Below, in pieces: positions 5,176 to 22,865 of a stretch of DNA of 22,865 nucleotides. This stretch comes from a virus. The DNA lies in the IMG/VR virus record IMGVR_UViG_3300009181_000370, positions 1 to 22,865 of that record. One strand, given 5' to 3'. Numbering within the stretch: the first letter of the stretch is position 1; each line of letters opens with the position of its first letter. Position numbers and translations under genes: made by a program. The notes under the pieces were generated by a model. The model was not told the origin of the DNA. It did not search any database and worked only from the letters and a program-made list of their open reading frames with translations.

Positions 5176-5548
5176 GCGTTTGAACATCACCCTGCCCCTG
5201 CCACCAAGCCTGAACCGCCTGTGGCGCACCACTAAAACCGGGCGGATGTATAAGTCGCCTGAGTACACAGCGTGGAAGACCGCCGCTCAGTGGGATGTCG
5301 TAGCGCAGATCAAGGGCCAGCAGATCACCGGCAAATTCAAATTAACCTTGATTGCAGATCGGCCCGACAAGCGGTCTCGTGATCTTGATAACCTGTTGAA
5401 GGCGGTACTAGACTGCCTCAATGGTATAGCGATCGATGACGATCACAACTGCGACATGCTGGAGGCATGGTGGTCATCTGAAGGAACATATTGTCAAATA
5501 ATAATAGAGGAATTGAAAGATGGGAAAACGGAGCGAGTACGATCGTAA
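5168..5548 (+). CDS. rusA: RusA-type Holliday junction resolvase
   Basis: This 126-residue protein matches RusA, the phage-derived homodimeric nuclease that cuts four-way DNA junctions. Family marks are the N-terminal 'LPLPPSLNRLWRT', the tyrosine/serine 'MYKSPEYTAWK' segment, 'RSRDLDNLLKAVLDCLNG' with acidic residues Asp72 and Asp74, and 'AIDDDHNCDM' supplying the third catalytic acid near Asp91. Length is normal (about 120). It would resolve recombination intermediates generated by the Erf/YqaJ pair or clear branches before packaging. The start lies eight bases before the stop of the Cro-like gene, so translation is probably coupled. Confidence 0.9.
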   Translation: MTKRLNITLPLPPSLNRLWRTTKTGRMYKSPEYTAWKTAAQWDVVAQIKGQQITGKFKLTLIADRPDKRSRDLDNLLKAVLDCLNGIAIDDDHNCDMLEAWWSSEGTYCQIIIEELKDGKTERVRS

Positions 5549-6056
5549 GCGGTTAGATTTTTACCCGACACCATACAAGGCAACACGGCCTCTGCTCCAG
5601 TTTTTGCCACAGGGGATCAAATACTGTGAACCCTGCGCAGGTTCAGGTGATCTGATCGAACACCTGCAAACTCGGGCAGAGTGTGTGGCATCATACGATG
5701 TTGATCCGCAGGCTGTGTGGATAGAGCGGCATGACGCAACATTCTTGACTCAAGAGGATCTGCGAGGGGCTGCTATGATCATCACCAACCCACCATGGGA
5801 GCGGACGGTTCTGCATCAGATCATAGAGAGGTGCGCCGGGCTGGCACCGACATGGTTGCTCTTCGATGCAGACTGGGCCCATACCCGGCAGGCGGCCCCC
5901 TATCTGGGGATATGTCACGACATTGTATCGGTCGGGCGCGTGAAGTGGATTGAGGACAGCGAAGGGGCCGGCAAGGACAACTGCTGCTGGTACCATTTTG
6001 ATTCGCACCTTAAATATGAGGGCACACATTTTTGGAACACTCGCAATGAAACCTAG
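5520..6056 (+). CDS. Putative DNA adenine methyltransferase, short form
   Basis: The 178-residue protein is a SAM-dependent methyltransferase of the amino-methylating class. It has the 'DFYPTPYKATRPLL' lead-in seen in phage MTases, motif I 'EPCAGSGDL' (37-45) for SAM binding, an acidic 'YDVDP' strand (59-63) and the catalytic motif IV NPPW (90-93). The order I then IV fits a gamma-like class. It is short: no separate target-recognition domain is evident, as in many phage orphan enzymes, so its sequence specificity cannot be guessed. It overlaps rusA by 29 bases and has GAGG nine bases before the ATG. Methylation could protect phage DNA from restriction or mark it for replication or packaging. 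Confidence 0.75.
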   Translation: MGKRSEYDRKRLDFYPTPYKATRPLLQFLPQGIKYCEPCAGSGDLIEHLQTRAECVASYDVDPQAVWIERHDATFLTQEDLRGAAMIITNPPWERTVLHQIIERCAGLAPTWLLFDADWAHTRQAAPYLGICHDIVSVGRVKWIEDSEGAGKDNCCWYHFDSHLKYEGTHFWNTRNET

Positions 6057-8181: not shown

Positions 8182-9708
8182 ATGACACAACTTAGAAACT
8201 ATCAGGAACAGGCAATTCTCAAACTGCGTCATTCCCTTGGAACGGGTAAACGGCGGCCAGTGGTGCAACTGCCTACAGGCGCAGGCAAGACCGTCATTGC
8301 GGCTTCGATAATCACCATGGCCCGATCGAAGGGCAAGCGGGTGATTTTCGCGGTGCCGTCTCTGACCCTGATCGACCAGACCGTTGAGCGGTTTCGACAG
8401 AACGGGATCACCGAGATTGGCGTGATGCAGGCCCAGCACGAGATGACAGACCCTAGGCAGCCTGTTCAGGTGTGCTCAATCCAGACCCTGATGCGCCGGG
8501 ATCTGCCAGACGCTGATCTGGTCATCGTCGATGAGGCGCATATGATGTTCAAGTTTTTGGGCGAGTGGGTTTCGTACCAACAGTGGGAGCGGATTCCGTT
8601 TGTTGGCCTGACCGCCACACCATGGGCCAGAGGCATGGGCAAGATCTGGGATGATCTGATTATTGGCACCACTATGCAGGAGCTGATCGACCAAAAGCAC
8701 CTGTGCGACTTCAAGGTCTACGCCCCGGCGCATCCTGATCTTGGATCGGTCAAGACTGTTGCCGGCGACTACGACCTCAAGGGGTTGGGCGAGGCTATGG
8801 ACCAAGGCGCACTGGTCGCGGACATTGTCACCACATGGTTGGAGAAGGGCCTGAACAAGCAGACCGTTTGCTTTGCGGTTAACCGTACCCATGCCAAACA
8901 CATTCAGAAGCAGTTCGAGGAGGCTGGGGTTCTGGTCGAGTACATGGACGCTTATACGCCGATGGTTGAGCGCACCGAGATCATCAAGCGGTTTGAGCGC
9001 AAGGACACGCAGGTGATCTGCAATGTCGGTGTGCTGACCACTGGTTTCGACGCCGATGTGCGGTGCATCATTTTGGCGCGGCCTACCAAGTCCGAGATGC
9101 TGTACGTCCAGATGATCGGTCGCGGTCTGCGCCCTGCCACTGGCAAGGAGTATTGTTTGATCCTCGACCACAGCGATACCACAATCCGTCTGGGATTCGT
9201 GACCGACATCAACCATACAACCCTCGATGACGGCAAGGCTCGTCAGAAGGCTAAGGCAGTGCAAAAGGAGCGTCTGCCCAAGGAGTGCCCCAAGTGTGCC
9301 TTCCTGCGGCCTGCAAAGACCAACAAGTGCCCTGCCTGCGGGTTTGTGGCCGAGGCGGTCAGTCAGACCGAGGTTGTCGATGGCGAGCTGATAGAGCTGA
9401 CGAAGGATAAAAAATACAAGAAGGGCGAATGGCCCCAGCACAAGAAGCAGGTCTTCTACAGCGATTTACGCTTGCATGCACACCTGCGTGGATACAAAGA
9501 TGGTTGGGCGGCACACGCCTATCGGACACGGCTGGGTGTCTGGCCGAGGGGCCTGTCGGATGAGAAGTCGCGCTTCATCAGCGCAGAGACCGAGAGCTGG
9601 ATCAAGCACTACAACATTTCAAAAGCAAAACAGCGGGAGAAACAAAATGCTAAAACAAACACCATCGCGGGATCTGGCACGGGGACGGTGGCGGGAGTTG
9701 CTGCCTAG
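8182..9708 (+). CDS. SF2 DEAD/DEAH-box helicase with zinc ribbon
   Basis: The 508-residue protein has all the usual SF2 helicase motifs: Q-like start 'LRNYQEQAI', Walker A PTGAGKT (31-37), Walker B DEAH (117-120), motif III 'LTATPW' (143-148), motifs IV-V region, 'LTTGFDAD' (284-291) and motif VI QMIGRGLRP (309-317). Downstream, CPKC (368-371) and CPAC (382-385) form a four-cysteine zinc ribbon followed by a basic C-terminus. Such phage helicases unwind DNA or branched structures, as in UvsW-like and RecG/RadD-like roles, and use ATP. The gene follows DUF1376 and overlaps the primase gene by 62 bases, which points to replication or replication-linked recombination. The start at 8182 has a purine-rich GGTGGG upstream. 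A DnaB-like replicative helicase is not present in the window. Confidence 0.9.
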   Translation: MTQLRNYQEQAILKLRHSLGTGKRRPVVQLPTGAGKTVIAASIITMARSKGKRVIFAVPSLTLIDQTVERFRQNGITEIGVMQAQHEMTDPRQPVQVCSIQTLMRRDLPDADLVIVDEAHMMFKFLGEWVSYQQWERIPFVGLTATPWARGMGKIWDDLIIGTTMQELIDQKHLCDFKVYAPAHPDLGSVKTVAGDYDLKGLGEAMDQGALVADIVTTWLEKGLNKQTVCFAVNRTHAKHIQKQFEEAGVLVEYMDAYTPMVERTEIIKRFERKDTQVICNVGVLTTGFDADVRCIILARPTKSEMLYVQMIGRGLRPATGKEYCLILDHSDTTIRLGFVTDINHTTLDDGKARQKAKAVQKERLPKECPKCAFLRPAKTNKCPACGFVAEAVSQTEVVDGELIELTKDKKYKKGEWPQHKKQVFYSDLRLHAHLRGYKDGWAAHAYRTRLGVWPRGLSDEKSRFISAETESWIKHYNISKAKQREKQNAKTNTIAGSGTGTVAGVAA

Positions 9709-10549
9709 TCTGGGGGTTGAGAGCAAATTTCTCACTGGAAAGCACTGCCCCTGCCCGATCTGCGGTGGCAAGGATCGGTTCAGGTTTGACGATAAAGAGG
9801 GGCTGGGAACCTATTTCTGCTCCCAGTGCGGTAGCGGGGACGGGTTCATGCTGGTTCAGAAAATTTCAGGCCGATCATTCAAAGAAATTGCCGAGCACGT
9901 TCAGGAGGTCTGGAAGACCGTAAAACAGATGCCGCAGGGTCAGCGGGATGAGATAGCCCAACAGAGGGCCATCAGGAACGCTTGGGAAGGCTCGTGGCAG
10001 CCTTCGACGGCTTCGCCCGCCGCATTGTACCTAAAGAGCCGACTTGGCCGCCCATGGGCCTCTAAAGCAATCCGTGAGTACTCTGGTGGGATGATCGCCC
10101 TGATATCGGATGTGGATGGTAAGCCTGTCAATGTCCACCTGACTGCCCTGACGCGGGACGGTAAGAAGAACGAAGCCGCTAGCCCGATAAAGCGGGTGAT
10201 GGCCGGCAAGTTACCAGAGGGGTGCGCGATTCGGATCTGGGATGCCGCCCCGGTGATGGGTATTGCAGAGGGGATTGAGTCGGCCATGGCGGCGGCCATC
10301 ATGTTCAGGATGCCGGTCTGGGCGGCCATCAATAGCGCTTTGTTGGCGAAGTGGGTGCCCCCTGAAGAGGCTCGCACCATCCACATATTCGGTGACAATG
10401 ACGTTAACTTTACCGGGCAGTCTAAGGCCTTTGCTCTGGCGAATAGGATCTCGGTGCAGTTTGAGCGTGAAGTGGTTGTGAGAATACCAGACGTAATTGG
10501 TCAAGATTGGAATGACGTTTTAAAGGGTAAGGCAGATGATAACGATTGA
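9647..10549 (+). CDS. Zinc-ribbon/TOPRIM DNA primase
   Basis: The 300-residue product is a phage primase of the zinc-ribbon plus TOPRIM type. The N-terminus has CPIC (36-39) and CSQC (58-61) around 'GGKDRFRFDDKEGLGTYF', the classic primase zinc ribbon that reads template signals. The TOPRIM part has 'MGIAEGIESAMAA' with Glu208 and 'IHIFGDND' with Asp250 and Asp252, the metal-binding acids used for RNA primer synthesis. The ending 'VRIPDVIGQDWNDVLKG' is common in this family (Toprim_3-like). No helicase domain follows, so unlike T7 gp4 it is a stand-alone primase working with a separate helicase. The ATG at 9647 (GGGAGA upstream) lies inside the helicase end; a longer upstream frame was rejected. 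Confidence 0.88.
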   Translation: MLKQTPSRDLARGRWRELLPSLGVESKFLTGKHCPCPICGGKDRFRFDDKEGLGTYFCSQCGSGDGFMLVQKISGRSFKEIAEHVQEVWKTVKQMPQGQRDEIAQQRAIRNAWEGSWQPSTASPAALYLKSRLGRPWASKAIREYSGGMIALISDVDGKPVNVHLTALTRDGKKNEAASPIKRVMAGKLPEGCAIRIWDAAPVMGIAEGIESAMAAAIMFRMPVWAAINSALLAKWVPPEEARTIHIFGDNDVNFTGQSKAFALANRISVQFEREVVVRIPDVIGQDWNDVLKGKADDND

Positions 10550-11482: not shown

Positions 11483-12157
11483 ATGTCTGAAGTGATTTAC
11501 ACCAAACTGGAACTCAACCCAGCAAAAACTTTTATCACTGGGGTGTGGTGCGATGGCGTGTATTTCTCTGCTGAACCGCCATTGAAGGCCACACCTAAGA
11601 ATGAGCAGTGGGTACGAACTGAGACTGCCAAGATAGCCGAAACCCATGAGGACTGCATCTTATGGCGATTGGAGCGGCAGATAGAGCTGAAGCGGGAGGT
11701 GATGGCGGCGGCTCGATATGAGAAGTATCGGAAAGATAGGCAATCGGATCAGTGGAATTCTGCCGCATATTTCCATTTAAGGGGCGCACCTCGCGATGAA
11801 ATTAAGGAAGAAACAGCCCGGCTAAATGCTGCGTGGATTAAGGCCATCCAATACAAAGCGGCACCAAGTGTGCGTGACACCGATCGGGATCGTAAAATGT
11901 TATATGAGGTGTCGGTAAAGGGCAGGACACTTAAAGATGTGGCCGCAGAGTTCGGTATATCCAGCTCTAGGGTCAGTCAGGTCATAGCGCGACAGCAAGG
12001 CCGAGATCATCGGTTTTGGGTCTCTCGATATCAGGACCATGTGGCAGAATGCCAGTTGCAGGAACCCGAACCAGAGGCCGCAGATCAAGGCATTGGAACG
12101 GACTGGACACCAGAGACGCAACACAAAGAATTTGAATTGTTAAGGGAAACAGCATAA
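11483..12157 (+). CDS. Sigma-region-4-like HTH protein, possible late regulator
   Basis: The 224-residue product has an alpha-helical, highly charged N-terminal two-thirds ('EDCILWRLERQIELKREVMAA' and similar) and a helix-turn-helix at about residues 147-172, 'GRTLKDVAAEFGISSSRVSQVIAR', which looks like sigma70 region 4 or a similar DNA-binding HTH. A mixed acidic tail follows. Such proteins can be positive regulators of late genes or terminase-related DNA-binding proteins. Here the gene stands right before the terminase small subunit and shares a TAATG junction with it. The start at 11483 has GGAG at an 11-base spacing, so the ribosome site is only fair. It could equally be a second, extra DNA-binding packaging factor. 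Confidence 0.6.
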   Translation: MSEVIYTKLELNPAKTFITGVWCDGVYFSAEPPLKATPKNEQWVRTETAKIAETHEDCILWRLERQIELKREVMAAARYEKYRKDRQSDQWNSAAYFHLRGAPRDEIKEETARLNAAWIKAIQYKAAPSVRDTDRDRKMLYEVSVKGRTLKDVAAEFGISSSRVSQVIARQQGRDHRFWVSRYQDHVAECQLQEPEPEAADQGIGTDWTPETQHKEFELLRETA

Positions 12158-12717
12158 TGGCGAAGAAACCCAAGGGTGATATCATCCCCTTCGAAGAGAA
12201 GATAGGCATTACGCCTAAAGTCGTACGACCAAAGTATATATTCGGCAGACCAACCAAGTACCAACCTGATTGGATGCTCGACAAGGTTATAGATCTCGGC
12301 ATCACTGGTGCCAGTAGGGCTAAGATCGCCCTGACCCTTGGTATCACTCATGAGACCTTGATTCAGTGGGAGAGGCAATTCCCAGACTTTTCTGAAGCCC
12401 TTAAAATGGCGAAGCTCGGAGCGCAGGTCTGGTTTGAAGAGGTGTTACAGTCAGCAATCCTTGGTGAGGGGGATACCCCGGCAGCATTGCTGATCTTCGC
12501 CCTAAAGAGTAGGTTTGCCACAGAGTACCGAGAGGTCAAGCACACCGAGATCTCTGGGGTGAATGGAGATCCTCTGGAGGTCAAGGCAATATCGATCGAT
12601 GCCAGCACACTGGACCCAGAGCAGAGAGAATTGGTTAAGCAGGCATTGCTTGCGGCCAAGAACGCGGCACATAGGCAGCCGATCACAATTGATAATGAAC
12701 CTAATGAGGATGATTGA
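12157..12717 (+). CDS. terS: Terminase small subunit
   Basis: This 186-residue protein has the plan of a phage terminase small subunit. 'GRPTKYQPDWMLDKVIDLGITGASRAKIALTLGITHETLIQWERQFPDF' (about residues 30-78, by its core KIALTLGITHETLIQWE) is the N-terminal DNA-binding helix-turn-helix that recognises the packaging site. A helical oligomerisation section 'FSEALKMAKLGAQVWFEE' follows, then an acidic/Gln-rich C-terminus with many Asp and Glu, the usual part that meets the large subunit. It starts in a TAATG overlap with the previous gene. The large subunit lies about 4 kb further on, an unusual separation. The assignment is by motif pattern, since small subunits diverge a lot. Confidence 0.75.
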   Translation: MAKKPKGDIIPFEEKIGITPKVVRPKYIFGRPTKYQPDWMLDKVIDLGITGASRAKIALTLGITHETLIQWERQFPDFSEALKMAKLGAQVWFEEVLQSAILGEGDTPAALLIFALKSRFATEYREVKHTEISGVNGDPLEVKAISIDASTLDPEQRELVKQALLAAKNAAHRQPITIDNEPNEDD

Positions 12718-14363: not shown

Positions 14364-14722
14364 CTAGGGGGCGGAAGAAGGGGTCATATTCTAAATGGTC
14401 TCCAGAGCGGGTCTCACAGATCGTCGAGATGGCAAGGACAGGTATGTCATACAGCGAGATCGGTGCCACTATGGGTGAACAAGGGTATGTTATCCGAAAT
14501 TTGCTCAAACGGTATGGCGTCTACGTCACCCGCAAGGATGTGGGGCAATCTCGGTGGCAACCGATCAAGACCGCTCCAAGGGATGGGACCACCATCATTG
14601 TCTATGAGCCGGGTTTTTACCAGACTGCTGCATGGACTGGCGGCGGATGGACTAACGCATGTGATAGTTGGTTGGGAGACGTAACGCACTGGATGCCGTT
14701 GCCAAAACCGCCTAAAGAATAA
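14360..14722 (+). CDS. HTH domain fused to DUF551 domain
   Basis: This 120-residue protein has two parts. Residues 1-55 ('SYSKWSPERVSQIVEMARTG' then 'SYSEIGATMGEQGYVIRNLL') look like a homeodomain-like helix-turn-helix, of the kind used by GcrA or resolvase proteins. Residues 66-118 are a DUF551 domain, recognised by 'WQPIKTAPRDGTTI', a 'GGWTNACD' strand and the closing 'THWMPLPKPP'. DUF551 is a common small phage domain of unknown function. A fusion with a DNA-binding N-terminus suggests that the DUF551 part may act on or near DNA. It overlaps the previous gene as ATGA and is followed by a 153-base gap without a convincing gene. Confidence 0.7.
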   Translation: MTRGRKKGSYSKWSPERVSQIVEMARTGMSYSEIGATMGEQGYVIRNLLKRYGVYVTRKDVGQSRWQPIKTAPRDGTTIIVYEPGFYQTAAWTGGGWTNACDSWLGDVTHWMPLPKPPKE

Positions 14723-14875: not shown

Positions 14876-15175
14876 ATGAAGAAGACTGAGATTGAGGCCG
14901 AGCGGGATCTGCTGGCAAAAAACCACAAGCGGCTGAACAAAGAGATCCAAGGTCTGCTCAATGAGAACAAGGATTTGCGGAAGCGGTTGGTCGAGGCAAA
15001 GGACCGAGCGGCGGACCTGCATATAGAGTTAGACAACAAACACGCTGACGATCGACGGCACTTTGCCACTACAGCCCTGCATTCGCTGATACAGGACGCA
15101 GAATCGTACAAGACCCCTGACCAGATAGCCGAGCAGGCATGGGCACTGGGCGATGCGATGATGAGGGCAAAGTGA
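14876..15175 (+). CDS. Coiled-coil protein with 'DAMM' C-terminal motif
   Basis: A 99-residue protein dominated by a long charged coiled coil ('LNKEIQGLLNENKDLRKRLVEAK' by its core LLNENKDLRKRLV) followed by a short domain 'FATTALHSLIQDAE' and the end 'QAWALGDAMMRAK'. That end matches the motif of the gene at 14112-14363. The ATG at 14876 has AGGGGG upstream and follows the structured gap. Its stop shares a base with the transporter start (TGATG), so it may be expressed together with the transporter and DpdA-like genes. Function unknown. Confidence 0.6.
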   Translation: MKKTEIEAERDLLAKNHKRLNKEIQGLLNENKDLRKRLVEAKDRAADLHIELDNKHADDRRHFATTALHSLIQDAESYKTPDQIAEQAWALGDAMMRAK

Positions 15176-15678
15176 TGCGGTATATTGTTCTCTTTGCATA
15201 TATTAGCACTGTCCCACTAGCAAATTGGATGATTGGCAACGTAGGCTTATGCGTGAAAGAGGGCGTATGCTTAGTGCCTGTTGCACCTGATGTGATGGCC
15301 CCAAGTGGGGTGCTGGCAATTGGTCTAGCATTTGTCCTACGCAATTTCATGCAGGATTTGTGGGGCATCAAGTTAACATTGGTGGCCATGGGTGCCGGTG
15401 CTTTGCTGTCGGGGTTTGTCAGCCCGCCTGCTTTTGTTATTGCGTCTGTGTCAGCGTTTATCCTTGCAGAAACCGCAGATATGTTGGTTTACACGCCTCT
15501 GCGGAAAAATGGTCTGACAAGGGCTTTGTTAGCATCCTGTTTCGTTGGGGCGGTTGTTGATAGCGCGGTGTTTTTGTGGGTCGCGTTTGGGTCTCTTGAT
15601 TACATCATTGGTGAAGTAATCGGTAAATCCTACGCTGCACTGTTTGCCGCCTTGATTACAAAGGCAATGCGGCGATGA
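15175..15678 (+). CDS. VUT/YhhQ-type queuosine-precursor transporter
   Basis: This 167-residue membrane protein has about six transmembrane helices (roughly residues 3-22, 42-57, 66-84, 86-106, 115-138 and 143-163). The 'VTIWRNVxxxCVxxGxCLxPV..DVMAPSGVLAIGLAFVLRN' pattern (by its core MAPSGVLAIGLAFVLR) and later 'SPPAFVIASVSAF', 'LASCFVGAVVDSAVFL' and 'AFGSLDYIIGEVIGK' are those of the VUT family, whose E. coli member YhhQ imports the queuosine precursors preQ0 and preQ1. It is shorter than YhhQ (about 220 residues), as in phage versions. The ATG at 15175 overlaps the previous stop as TGATG. The DpdA-like gene follows in an ATGA overlap. Together they suggest import of a 7-deazaguanine precursor for phage DNA. 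Confidence 0.82.
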   Translation: MRYIVLFAYISTVPLANWMIGNVGLCVKEGVCLVPVAPDVMAPSGVLAIGLAFVLRNFMQDLWGIKLTLVAMGAGALLSGFVSPPAFVIASVSAFILAETADMLVYTPLRKNGLTRALLASCFVGAVVDSAVFLWVAFGSLDYIIGEVIGKSYAALFAALITKAMRR

Positions 15679-16373
15679 CCGTTTACTATCATGGCACACC
15701 AATTACGCCGCGCACGGAGATGTTGAAACTAGCGGGAAAGAATTTTTGCGTTTCGTTTGCATGGCCCGGCGACATTGATGTTAGTCTATCAATCGGTCAA
15801 TCGGTGCTAATGGATAATGGGGCGTTCTCTGCATACACAAAGGGCAAGAGCGTAAACGAGAAGAAACTGTACGACTGGATTGAACCGAGGTTAAAGCACC
15901 CGCACAAGGCCATCGTTATGGATGTTATCAACGGTGACGTTGACCAACAGAGGAAGGCTAGAAAACGGTGGCCGTTCCCAAAAGAATTGTCTTGGGCGGT
16001 ATGGCACTTAGACAAGCCTCTCAATTATCTGCAAGAGATAGTAGAGGAAGACGGCGCGGTATGTTTTGGATCTGCCGGTGAGTATTGGCAAATTGGCACA
16101 GAGAAATGGATTCGGCGTATGGATGAGGCGTTTACCCTGCTATCTAAGAAAAGAACAATGCCTTGGGTGCATGGGTTGCGTATGTCAGCTCAGGCAGGGG
16201 ATTGGCCATTAGCAAGCGTAGATAGCACTAATGTCGCAAGAAACCATAGCGGTTCCAGCAGGTGCCCGTCAAAGGACATAGTGAAAATGGCGCAAAGGAT
16301 TGAAAGCGTTCACCAGCCTAAAGTATGGGAACCGAGAAACGTGCAATTAATGTTAACATTAGGAGGGGAGTGA
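15675..16373 (+). CDS. dpdA-like: DpdA-like (TGT-related) DNA base-exchange protein
   Basis: The 232-residue protein resembles the phage DpdA group, distant relatives of tRNA-guanine transglycosylase (TGT) that swap guanine in DNA for a 7-deazaguanine base. Motifs support a TGT-like barrel: 'LMDNGAFSAY' with Asp47 (TGT has DSGGFQ), 'IVMDVI' (Asp83), 'VWHLDKP', 'CFGSAGEYW' and 'SVDSTNVARNH' with Asp183, the position of the TGT nucleophile in 'D..TR.ARN'. It is shorter than canonical TGT (about 375) and has no zinc-binding Cys cluster, as expected for a DNA version. It follows the transporter gene in an ATGA overlap. The substrate base and target sequence are unknown; no preQ0-making genes lie here, so the precursor would come from the host. 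Confidence 0.65.
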   Translation: MTVYYHGTPITPRTEMLKLAGKNFCVSFAWPGDIDVSLSIGQSVLMDNGAFSAYTKGKSVNEKKLYDWIEPRLKHPHKAIVMDVINGDVDQQRKARKRWPFPKELSWAVWHLDKPLNYLQEIVEEDGAVCFGSAGEYWQIGTEKWIRRMDEAFTLLSKKRTMPWVHGLRMSAQAGDWPLASVDSTNVARNHSGSSRCPSKDIVKMAQRIESVHQPKVWEPRNVQLMLTLGGE

Positions 16374-16474: not shown

Positions 16475-16701
16475 ACAGCGACCCCATTTATTTTCTGAAC
16501 AACTATGGTCAGTGCCGGCTGGACAAGTGCATGTGCATTGACCGTGACAACCCCCGCTTTGATGGCGCATGGGGCGGTCTGGCCTGCCCAGACTGGGTTG
16601 CAAGCGGTTCGCAAGACCTCCATTCTATGATAGAGAGGGCAAAATTAACGTATATGGCGAACAAAAATGATGAACGCACCCGTAATACTCAGAGGCCTTG
16701 A
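16468..16701 (+). CDS. Cys-rich hypothetical protein
   Basis: A 77-residue protein with a cluster of cysteines ('QCRLDKCMCIDRDN' and 'LACPDW'), suggesting a small metal-binding or disulfide-stabilised domain (CxxxxCxC...C). The C-terminus is basic (MANKNDERTRNTQRP). The start is uncertain: ATG 16468 has GGTGG upstream, GTG 16471 overlaps the preceding stop, and GTG 16453 lies further up. It overlaps the end of the membrane peptide and also the beginning of the large terminase gene by 35 bases. Function unknown. Confidence 0.55.
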   Translation: MVNSDPIYFLNNYGQCRLDKCMCIDRDNPRFDGAWGGLACPDWVASGSQDLHSMIERAKLTYMANKNDERTRNTQRP

Positions 16702-18331
16702 CGGTGTCAGGTACGATGCCGACAAAAGCCTGATCGACATCGACAGGCAGGACTGTGAGGATTCCCTGTACACGTTTCTGGCAGGGGCTTGGAAGACCAT
16801 TGATCCATCAGGGTTCACAGAGGGCTGGCCGATCGAGGCTATCGCAGAGCATCTGCAGGCGGTGGTCGATGGTGACCTGAAGCGGCTGATCATCAACATC
16901 CCGCCTCGCATGGGGAAGAGCTCGATTACCTCGGTGGCCTTTCCTGCGTGGACATGGGCGCAGTCTATCAGCACCCCAACCTCTGGCCCCGGCGTTCAGT
17001 TCCTGCATGCATCATACGCTCAGTCGCTGTCACTGCGCGATTCGGTTAAGTGCCGCCGCTTGATCACAAGCCCATGGTATCGGGAACGGTGGGGCGATCG
17101 GTACGCATTGACAGGGGACCAGAATGCTAAAACGAGGTTCGACAATAATAAGGGTGGATCTCGACTTTCTACATCGGTTGGGTCCGCGCTTACGGGCGAA
17201 GGTGGTTCGATCATTGTGGTCGATGACCCAAACGCCGCACAAGAGGCTTTCAGCGAGGCGACCATTGAAAGCACCATTGAGTGGTGGGACAATGCGCTAT
17301 CGACGCGACTCAACGACCCTAAGACTGGAGCGTTTGTTGTTATCCAGCAGAGACTTTCGGAGGAAGACCTCACGGGGCACATACTGTCCAAGGATGTAGG
17401 GGACTGGTGCCACCTGATGCTGCCAATGCGTTACGAGAAGGACCGCGCCTTCGTCAACACCTACGGTTGGGAAGACCCTCGGCAGGAGGAAGGCGAGCTG
17501 CTCTGGCCTGAGCGTATGGGAGAGAAGGAAGTTAAACTATTGGAACGGCAACTGGGCCCATGGGGAACAGCAGGGCAGCTCCAACAGAGGCCTGAACCAA
17601 AGGGCGGTGGTATCATTAAGCGTGACTGGTGGACGCTCTGGGACCAGCAGAATTTCCCGCCTGTGGAGTATCTGGTGGCCAGCCTTGATACAGCGTTCAC
17701 GACTAAGACCGAGAATGACTATAGCGCGATGACCGTCTGGGGGATCTTTACCGGCGGCAATCAGAAGGCGGTAGCAACCCGCGTGACGGGCCGCGATGGT
17801 CTAATTAACTTTGTGGAAGAGCGGCAGTACTCTGAAGAGCACCCACGGGTGATCCTAATGCATGCATGGCAAGAGCGGCTAGAACTGCATGATCTGGTCA
17901 CGAAGGTCGCAGAAACCATGAAGACCTATAAGGTGGACAAGCTGCTGGTTGAGAACAAAGCATCTGGGCCCAGCGTCATTCAGGAACTGCGGCGCATTTA
18001 TAACCACCTGCCGTTTGTGGTTGAGCCGATCGACCTCTACCGTACCCATGCCCATCTTGGGATTGATAAGATCTCGCGGGCACATGCTGTAGTGCCGTTG
18101 TTTACTGGTGGGTTGGTTTACGCTCCTGATCGATCATGGGCTGATATGGTGATCACCCAGTGCTCGACCTTTCCAAAGGCCAAGCATGACGATTTGGTCG
18201 ATACGGTGACCATGGCCCTGCAGTATCTGCGGCGCACCGGCATGATCATTCGGGGCGAAGAGTGGACGGCGGATGTGGAAAGCGATATGCTACATACAGG
18301 GTCACCGCCTGAAGCGTTGTATCCTTCATGA
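16667..18331 (+). CDS. terL: Terminase large subunit
   Basis: The 554-residue protein is a terminase large subunit, the motor and nuclease that packages phage DNA. The ATPase part has Walker A 'PPRMGKSS' (79-86), Walker B 'IIVVDDP' (182-188) and 'VVIQQRLSEEDLTG' (224-237) as coupling segment. The nuclease part has 'VASLDTAF' with Asp341, 'LLVENKASGP' with Glu429 and 'KHDDLVDTVTMAL' with Asp508/Asp509 and Asp512, three metal-binding acids of the RNase H-like fold. The ATG at 16667 is chosen; a second ATG at 16670 is adjacent. The length suits the Terminase_6-type family. The small subunit is about 4 kb upstream and the portal gene lies 215 bases downstream, after one small gene. Confidence 0.93.
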   Translation: MMNAPVILRGLDGVRYDADKSLIDIDRQDCEDSLYTFLAGAWKTIDPSGFTEGWPIEAIAEHLQAVVDGDLKRLIINIPPRMGKSSITSVAFPAWTWAQSISTPTSGPGVQFLHASYAQSLSLRDSVKCRRLITSPWYRERWGDRYALTGDQNAKTRFDNNKGGSRLSTSVGSALTGEGGSIIVVDDPNAAQEAFSEATIESTIEWWDNALSTRLNDPKTGAFVVIQQRLSEEDLTGHILSKDVGDWCHLMLPMRYEKDRAFVNTYGWEDPRQEEGELLWPERMGEKEVKLLERQLGPWGTAGQLQQRPEPKGGGIIKRDWWTLWDQQNFPPVEYLVASLDTAFTTKTENDYSAMTVWGIFTGGNQKAVATRVTGRDGLINFVEERQYSEEHPRVILMHAWQERLELHDLVTKVAETMKTYKVDKLLVENKASGPSVIQELRRIYNHLPFVVEPIDLYRTHAHLGIDKISRAHAVVPLFTGGLVYAPDRSWADMVITQCSTFPKAKHDDLVDTVTMALQYLRRTGMIIRGEEWTADVESDMLHTGSPPEALYPS

Positions 18332-20930: not shown

Positions 20931-22865
20931 ATGCCTGAGTTCACAGTTCCTCAACTGCTGGCACTTGCCAAGGATGCCTTGACTGATCGCCCTAAGATGT
21001 ACAAGAAGGGCGGCACAGTGGCACACAAGGGCGTGAGCATTACACATGCCGAGCTGTCGCCGCAGGCCCTCCACGGCGGTGCTGTGTGGCACCCAGAGCA
21101 CTTTGCTCCCGGCGGTGAAGTAGATCCTGTCTTAGGCGCACAACCGCAGGGCAATATAGTTGGCCCACCAGAGATGCAAGGGCCTCCTGCTCCTCCTATT
21201 ATTGCTGCACCGCCAAAGCGGACGATCGGCAGCATGATTAAGCGCGGCGTTCCGATCCAACCTTCCACGCCAGATCCAACCCCGCAAGAACTTGCAGCAG
21301 CACGGGCTGACACTCGCGGTGGCGGTGATATCGTTGCAAGGCGGCTTGATACGATTGTGCCAGAGAGCAAACGTGTTGTTGGCGGAACCTATACGCCCGG
21401 CGCACCTAATGGCGGTCGATGGTCAGATCTCCCTCACTCTGTGCTTGAAGGCCCCGGCTTAGGGTTTAAGTTTTCTCAAGAGCAGAGAGACGCGGAGCAA
21501 CAGCATGCTCGGACGTTAAATGCCTTGCAGAAGTTGCCCAACAGTAAAGTGGCAAAAGAAGCGCACCAAGCATCAATTGATCGTTTGGAGAAATCTTACG
21601 CGCACGGCGATGCAATGTTGCAGGATCTTTGGAACCAATCTGTCGCGGAGAGCTCGCAAGCTGCCAAGAACTCTGTAAAGGCAAGCAATGCAAGGCCTAC
21701 ATTTGGTGCAAAGGACTGGGACAGCGCAATGCGCCTACCTATCAGGGATCACCTTTGGTATGAGCTGTCTGGCGAAAAATTTGCCGAAAACATGCCTGAT
21801 CTTACGCCTGAAGAACATTTGAAAATGGTCGATGTTGTCGGTGCGACATCAGCCCGTGCCGATCCAAAAGAAAACCTTGAGCGGACTCTTGCTGTGATGT
21901 CACAGCACATGAGAAATGCGCCGATCGATGTTGATTTGACCCAGCCGGGGACAGTGTCTGCTGCCCTTGGTCGGTCACACGAAGGCGGGACATCGGCCTT
22001 GTCTGGCAACAAAACAGGGCATTTTTCCGATACGCTGGCATTGACCGGTGGCGTACCAACACGGTTCCCAATCTCGGTAAACGATGTGTGGGTTGGCAGA
22101 ATGTTTGGTGTTCCTGATGATGTGATGTCATCTAATCAGTCGCTCCATGAGCCGATGGCAATCTATTTTAATAAGATCCGCGACCTGTATAACGATCTGC
22201 ATAAGGACAAGTTGCCGTTTAAGTATCAATCGTGGAATTTCCAAGCTCCATCATGGGTGCATCTGCGGCCCAATGAAACAGGCGATGCATACCATCAGGT
22301 TTGGGGCGGCATCATCAAGAAGGCTGAGAACGCTGGTATACCCGGCTTGGAAGGCGAAAAAATCCGCAGGGAAGCATTTATGCACCCCGGTTTTGCGGAC
22401 GCATTACGCGCCACCACTCCGGCTTATCGAAGTGCACCCAAAGCAACGGTTGAGCTGGGCACTAAGCTGACACCTACCGGCAACGCGGCATTTGATGCCT
22501 ACAAGAAGGCAAAGGATGAGGGCGACGAGCTGTCTCAGTACGAATATACCAAGGCACTGACATCGGCCATGCACTCTTCTGGCAGGGGTAAGTTGCACCC
22601 ATGGGACGCATTGAAGAAGGCGATCACTGGGGATCTTACAAGCGCATCTGACATCACCCGGATTGCACATGGAACGGCTGATCGGCCATTTGATGTGGGC
22701 GGGAGCTTTGAAGGCGATGTGTCACCCAACATCCGTGTACCACTGAAGGGCATGTCGGACGATGACCTTGCAATCTTTAATGCAATCCCCGGTCATCACC
22801 TGAATCAGGCTGCAATGGCAATCTCACAGATCCATGGTGCCTATCCAACACACCCACCTAAATCA
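20931..22865 (+). CDS. Large hypothetical phage protein, 3' end outside window
   Basis: The frame opens at ATG 20931, two bases after the portal stop, and stays open to the end of the window: at least 645 residues. It was translated by eye. The first 70 residues contain short 'GG-V' segments ('MYKKGGTVAHKG' and 'FAPGGEVDPV'), a Pro-rich linker follows (about 70-120), then helical stretches ('EEHLKMVDVVGATSARADPKENLERTLAVM', by its core HLKMVDVVGATSARADP) and later 'DLYNDLHKDKLPFKYQSWNF' and 'DAYHQVWGGIIKKAENAG' segments. Proteins with such repeats beside the portal are often large virion-associated or polyvalent proteins, ejected or head-bound. I cannot name a domain. It could be a scaffold, an ejected protein, or a modular enzyme whose catalytic part lies beyond the edge. 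Confidence 0.75.
   Translation, partial: MPEFTVPQLLALAKDALTDRPKMYKKGGTVAHKGVSITHAELSPQALHGGAVWHPEHFAPGGEVDPVLGAQPQGNIVGPPEMQGPPAPPIIAAPPKRTIGSMIKRGVPIQPSTPDPTPQELAAARADTRGGGDIVARRLDTIVPESKRVVGGTYTPGAPNGGRWSDLPHSVLEGPGLGFKFSQEQRDAEQQHARTLNALQKLPNSKVAKEAHQASIDRLEKSYAHGDAMLQDLWNQSVAESSQAAKNSVKASNARPTFGAKDWDSAMRLPIRDHLWYELSGEKFAENMPDLTPEEHLKMVDVVGATSARADPKENLERTLAVMSQHMRNAPIDVDLTQPGTVSAALGRSHEGGTSALSGNKTGHFSDTLALTGGVPTRFPISVNDVWVGRMFGVPDDVMSSNQSLHEPMAIYFNKIRDLYNDLHKDKLPFKYQSWNFQAPSWVHLRPNETGDAYHQVWGGIIKKAENAGIPGLEGEKIRREAFMHPGFADALRATTPAYRSAPKATVELGTKLTPTGNAAFDAYKKAKDEGDELSQYEYTKALTSAMHSSGRGKLHPWDALKKAITGDLTSASDITRIAHGTADRPFDVGGSFEGDVSPNIRVPLKGMSDDDLAIFNAIPGHHLNQAAMAISQIHGAYPTHPPKS

Follow-up and report, generated by a model that had tools for sequence, protein, structure and literature searches.

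The window analysed here, a 22,865-base phage record of the IMG/VR type, encodes a two-gene unit made up of a VUT/COG1738-type importer (167 aa; 15175..15678, plus strand) and a short, predicted base-exchange enzyme of the DpdA/TGT kind (232 aa; 15675..16373, plus strand). We consider it probable, at roughly two chances in three, that these genes form a cassette for 7-deazaguanine DNA modification of the salvage type, with an imported precursor being exchanged into the phage DNA. The recurrence of the pair in dozens of phages suggests, though without proving it, that this phage disguises its DNA with a ready-made, imported base.

Both ORFs were found exactly where the original prediction had placed two coupled genes (15175-16373), and a start/stop overlap of the form ATGA joins them, as read directly from the sequence (15675..15678, plus strand). 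The start of the VUT gene is overlapped (TGATG) by a 99-aa ORF (14876..15175, plus strand) that has a weak match to phrog_3671 (0.003). These two overlaps indicate that the three genes are coupled, and the 99-aa ORF is probably in the same transcript as the pair. A longer VUT gene starting at 15139 is less likely because its relatives begin at the methionine of 15175. The pair does lie between the genes for the terminase small subunit (12157-12717; phrog_309, 1e-19) and large subunit (16667-18331; phrog_38, 3e-88), yet its distance from the former is about 2.5 kb, with several small ORFs in between. The further idea that this place implies expression just before packaging was dropped, because relatives do not conserve the position and carry the pair in quite different settings, such as next to DNA polymerase or close to lysis genes. 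In promoter and terminator scans, the number of sites was about the same as in shuffled sequence. An Rfam search gave no match, and therefore no preQ1 riboswitch.

Two contigs of the viral collection were 100% identical to the window over the bases read, L002 (IMGVR 3300027754) over 11,528 bases and L003 (IMGVR 3300010885) over 7,927 bases. As these come from two further samples, the phage recurs across samples. The L003 contig (24,323 bases) starts at window base 14444, so that window and contig together cover the equivalent of about 38.8 kb of this phage. The whole window, used as a nucleotide query against the phage collection, gave no match. Elsewhere in the window, the helicase (8182-9708) and primase (9476-10549) ORFs overlap by 233 bases; the true primase start is probably downstream of 9476, because the zinc ribbon begins only at residue 88. 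After the portal gene, an open ORF of 645 aa (20931-22865) without a PHROG match runs off the window end.

The 232-aa protein matched PHROG 887, annotated as "queuine tRNA-ribosyltransferase" (4e-39). This family also takes in the DpdA proteins of phages CAjan (8e-96) and MED16 (3e-70), and the MED16 DpdA is 33% identical to the window protein (1e-32). When a profile of 82 relatives was aligned with CAjan DpdA by hhalign (probability 96.3, E 1.9e-9, residues 35-187), Asp47 and Asp183 fell on CAjan aspartates ("DSGAFS" and "CDSS"). Together with the barrel model described below, these matches bear out the predicted identity as a TGT/DpdA-like enzyme. No Pfam or NCBIfam model matched the protein. 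The bacterial DpdA equivalog model NF041059 marks another branch only, since even CAjan DpdA, a proven member, falls short of its cut-off (16.9 vs 200 bits).

The motifs named in the original prediction (DNGAFS and SVDSTN..ARN) are real and conserved. The DNGAF motif (15813..15827, plus strand) lies at the C-terminal end of barrel strand 43-47 and carries Asp47, the predicted acid/base (TGT Asp102-like), and the SVDSTNVARN motif (16215..16244, plus strand) lies at the end of strand 181-184 and carries Asp183, the predicted nucleophile (TGT Asp280-like). Loss of these aspartates in homologues, which had been named beforehand as counter-evidence, was looked for and did not occur. Both were found in all 14 sequences of a first alignment gathered by similarity search. 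In a larger alignment, biased because much of it was gathered through DNGAF or DST patterns, Asp47 accounted for 173/173 and Asp183 for 172/173 of the letters present. Asp47, Asp83, His111 and Asp183 are essentially invariant among about 174 homologues.

The AF2 model of the protein, a confident one (pLDDT 94.8, pTM 0.90), is a TIM barrel in the order of its strands and helices. The active site of such enzymes is at the C-terminal strand ends, and in the model the near-invariant residues Asp47, Asp83, His111, Gly132, His166 and Asp183 stand at or just past these ends. We compare these residues with TGT Asp102, Asp156, Gln203, Gly230 and Asp280, on the basis of what is known of TGT and not of a superposition. 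A fold search of the viral library (BFVD) returned phage queuine tRNA-ribosyltransferases (TM 0.67, E 5e-10). A fold unlike TGT, the other counter-evidence named beforehand, was therefore not seen; the predicted barrel fits the fold class without singling out TGT. The fold alone supports but does not prove TGT kinship, for which the profile match and the PHROG membership are the basis. A fold search of the PDB returned generic TIM barrels, with TGT 1wke at rank 44 (TM 0.49, E 0.068); being TIM barrels in general, these matches were not used as proof of kinship. Sequence searches of solved structures, with the single protein and with the 82-sequence profile, found no TGT.

The VUT protein matched Pfam Vut_1 (PF02592; 5e-8, 33.9 bits) above the curated cut-off of 27.2, and phrog_4899 (5e-32). 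Its AF2 model (pLDDT 95.8) is, with confidence, an all-helical membrane protein, and N17, G24, G50, R56, A90, S91, F95, D102, D129, S130, F133 and K151 are invariant in 48 relatives. The PF02592 match and the ATGA overlap support a VUT-family importer in one coupled unit with the enzyme. The protein is below the cut-offs of TIGR00697 (queuosine precursor transporter; 29.9 vs 50.95 bits) and NF008406 (YhhQ; 17.3 vs 252 bits), and we therefore file it as VUT/COG1738 and not as a YhhQ equivalog; the CAjan transporter is likewise below the TIGR00697 cut-off (22.2 bits). In E. coli, preQ0 uptake depends on YhhQ, a COG1738 member of the same PF02592 family (PMC5372724); its model has 221 positions against 167 aa in the window protein. 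From the identity of its partner, we infer that the substrate of the window importer is a 7-deazaguanine precursor. A fold search gave non-significant matches, among them the biotin and riboflavin S-components of ECF transporters.

The two families occur together far beyond chance, as found when the pair was sought in other phages. Using DpdA alone as the query and reading up to 6 kb on each side, we retrieved 84 viral-collection loci, or 81 once the window and its two copies are set aside. A VUT gene lay on the same strand within 700 bp of DpdA in 68 of the 84, in either order; in 54 it was adjacent or overlapping and in 14 within 700 bp, and none of the 84 loci had a VUT gene farther away in the sequence read. 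Among bacterial-genome loci, many of them prophage-like, 12 of 80 had VUT on the same strand as DpdA. The reverse search with VUT alone found the short DpdA of this family within 1 kb in 34 of 41 non-duplicate loci. Pairs of the same two families, adjacent or within about 500 bp, are present in Rhizobium phages RHph_N3_2 and RHph_X2_30, Pseudanabaena phage Pam5 and Drexlerviridae phage Sadiya; their gene order and surroundings differ from those of the window, and the genes are mostly deposited as hypothetical or DUF165. In a tree of 100 rows built by a quick method, the position of VUT before or after DpdA changes at least eight times. Such repeated rebuilding or rearrangement of the pair points to a functional link and not to a single accident of inheritance. 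As a point against a salvage cassette, about half of the homologues (prophage relatives for the most part) lack both VUT and QueD in their vicinity.

In other loci, the place of the importer can be taken by preQ0 synthesis genes. Ten loci have QueD (PTPS) no more than about 600 bp from DpdA; nine are independent, as L071 is the same stretch as L108. None of these ten had VUT and none of the 84 VUT-bearing loci had QueD (Fisher p 0.0016, ignoring relatedness). Representative proteins pass the Pfam cut-offs. Seven QueD rows in the tree need seven changes, at least six of them forced by well-supported branches, so that QueD beside DpdA has at least six separate origins. The starred tree group of the window itself includes one locus with QueD upstream (L025) and one with neither gene (L024). 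QueE accompanies QueD twice, in the orders QueD-DpdA-QueE (L097) and DpdA-QueE-QueD (L131), and QueC stands between importer and enzyme in L063 and L039 (VUT-QueC-DpdA). The short DpdA goes with an importer in some loci and with preQ0 synthesis genes in others, and the best explanation is that it needs a 7-deazaguanine base. On the bolder, less likely reading given below, the base inserted in the QueD and QueE forms without nearby QueC (L097 and L131) could even be 7-carboxy-7-deazaguanine, an earlier product of the pathway, rather than preQ0.

By its gene content, the phage of the window appears to depend on salvage alone. Searches of the window for FolE and QueF came up empty, and it also had no relative of CAjan FolE, QueD, QueE or QueC or of the QueD profile. 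QueC, QueD, FolE and QueF were not found in the overlapping contig (G002) that extends this phage to about 38.8 kb, nor in six VUT-bearing relatives of 33-38 kb. The same FolE, QueD, QueC and QueF searches gave matches in most control genomes. The records may be fragments, and the absence of synthesis genes is therefore not final. A DpdC-type DUF6884 was not found. The original prediction of salvage-based modification was thus upheld in the enzyme/importer unit and in the lack of GTP cyclohydrolase and preQ0 synthesis genes in the window and the overlapping contig, but not in its packaging-timed expression.

According to the salvage reading, VUT in the host inner membrane would raise the pool of a free 7-deazaguanine base, most likely preQ0, or else preQ1. 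The DpdA-like enzyme would then exchange bases in phage DNA in the manner of TGT: once Asp183 had attacked C1' of deoxyguanosine, guanine would leave, and Asp47 would serve as acid/base in the attachment of the deazaguanine. This would yield dPreQ0, which might drift or be converted to dADG, at part of the phage guanines, and such a change would impede restriction enzymes or other host factors that read guanine. We infer DNA rather than tRNA as the substrate, along with the base, its transport and the benefit. In Escherichia phage CAjan, deletion of dpdA abolishes both dPreQ0 and restriction protection (PMC6884629). The DpdA of CAjan and phage 9g and that of the window have PHROG 887 and the aligned catalytic aspartates in common, and CAjan also has a VUT gene. 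However, CAjan DpdA is longer (306 vs 232 aa, aligned only over residues 35-187), and CAjan makes its own preQ0 with FolE, QueD, QueE and QueC, of which the window phage shows none. Bacterial dpd islands also have DpdA with preQ0 genes or, in about 9% of islands, YhhQ nearby (PMC11888242); the dpd restriction operon was not seen in the window.

The nearest phage with a measured DNA composition is MED16. MED16 and SEN1 have DpdA of the same short family and lack preQ0 synthesis genes; unlike the window DpdA, theirs have no importer beside them, and in MED16 the 6 kb read to each side contains no annotated importer. The host of MED16 is Pantoea. MED16, a DpdA-only phage, carries dADG in its DNA at only about 0.13% of G, and none of the restriction enzymes tried was detectably affected (PMC8306585). 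For this reason, to say that such systems replace guanine, as the original prediction did, may overstate the extent of modification. MED16 therefore gives both a caution and a prediction, namely that importer-bearing phages should be more modified. Another DpdA-only phage, Mycobacterium phage Orion, showed no modification.

The best-surviving alternative, which we nevertheless regard as improbable, is that the precursor comes mainly from the queuosine pathway of the host, with VUT topping up the supply or moving another purine. The DpdA-only phages 7-11 and MED16 are modified with no importer or synthesis genes reported, and other purines are allowed as substrates of COG1738 importers (PMC5372724), both as this alternative would have it. 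Retention of the importer beside DpdA in most viral relatives argues against it. So does Mycobacterium phage GreaseLightnin, which has a similar pair of VUT and, after it, a phrog_15826 protein; its host M. smegmatis is reported to be without preQ0 genes, and an outside precursor would therefore make most sense. A bolder form of the salvage reading, which we regard as less likely than not, is a minimal autonomous cassette of one importer and one barrel-only base-exchange enzyme that modifies DNA with environmental 7-deazaguanine whatever the host pathway, its supply gene being repeatedly swapped (VUT for QueD or QueD plus QueE). The exchange of importer and preQ0 genes makes the choice between salvage and host supply directly testable in cultured phages, such as E. 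coli phages of the Sadiya/Opt-719 type. If salvage is true, the protection of phage DNA would depend on an environmental nutrient.

Somewhat less probable again is a tRNA-directed role, in which the short TGT-like enzyme would exchange guanine in tRNA, whether of the host or of the phage, while queuosine salvage fed by the importer would tune translation during infection. In its favour, the enzyme has the catalytic layout of TGT, and it is chiefly for queuosine salvage that COG1738 importers are known (PMC5372724). However, 232 aa leave no room for the zinc and tRNA-binding part of TGT: the protein has only three cysteines, scattered at 25, 130 and 197 with no cluster, and does not match the Pfam TGT model PF01702, which finds all 14 control genomes. 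Moreover, the proven members of the family act on DNA, and the window has no tRNA gene. A role as base remover or counter-defence enzyme is very improbable; the protein would then act on host DNA that carries 7-deazaguanine marks (dpd islands), or be a glycosylase and not insert a base. It does consist of the barrel core only and belongs to a branch without a measured product, but the importer and QueD, QueE and QueC, its recurrent neighbours, would be needless for a remover.

The salvage idea itself had been published. Hutinet 2019 reported DpdA-only phages, some with YhhQ, and proposed uptake of exogenous precursor, leaving open what DpdA-only phages do. The tight cassette and the alternation of importer and QueD are additions to that work. 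Hutinet 2019 also described YhhQ as without correlation with any group of phages, a statement refined by the reciprocal link of VUT to one short DpdA subfamily. The part worth following is the recurrent compact cassette with an exchangeable supply gene; otherwise the system is of a known kind.

Other TGT-like proteins also adjoin VUT. Four of the other seven loci from the reverse search encode a different protein of about 200 aa with DNGCF...CDSVDG motifs; the one scanned, that of L241, is phrog_15826 ("unknown function"). This looks like a second TGT-like family of about 200 aa (DNGC[FY]...APDVVGDA...GCDSVDG), with loci at L241:2306-2905, L021:3784-4410 and L022:3515-4126 and next to VUT in L228, L234 and L235. 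Such proteins adjoin VUT in Arthrobacter, Mycobacterium and metagenomic phages, and Aoka gp40 is already annotated as DpdA-like. Another TGT-like family, phrog_1279, directly precedes VUT in Sinorhizobium phage phiLM21 (L020:2123-3474), which brings the TGT-like families with a VUT partner to at least three.

Further genes were seen around the short DpdA. A PAPS-reductase-like protein (SFSGGRTS, PF01507) is near it in about 20 loci, sometimes overlapping (e.g. L043:2144-2935 and L008:4171-4998). Cytosine-methylase-like genes are near DpdA in about 22 loci (e.g. L154:6762-8525, L066:2921-4843 and L018:3243-5333), as if anti-restriction genes gather there, and the window has a DNA methyltransferase-like ORF at 5520-6056 (phrog_799).
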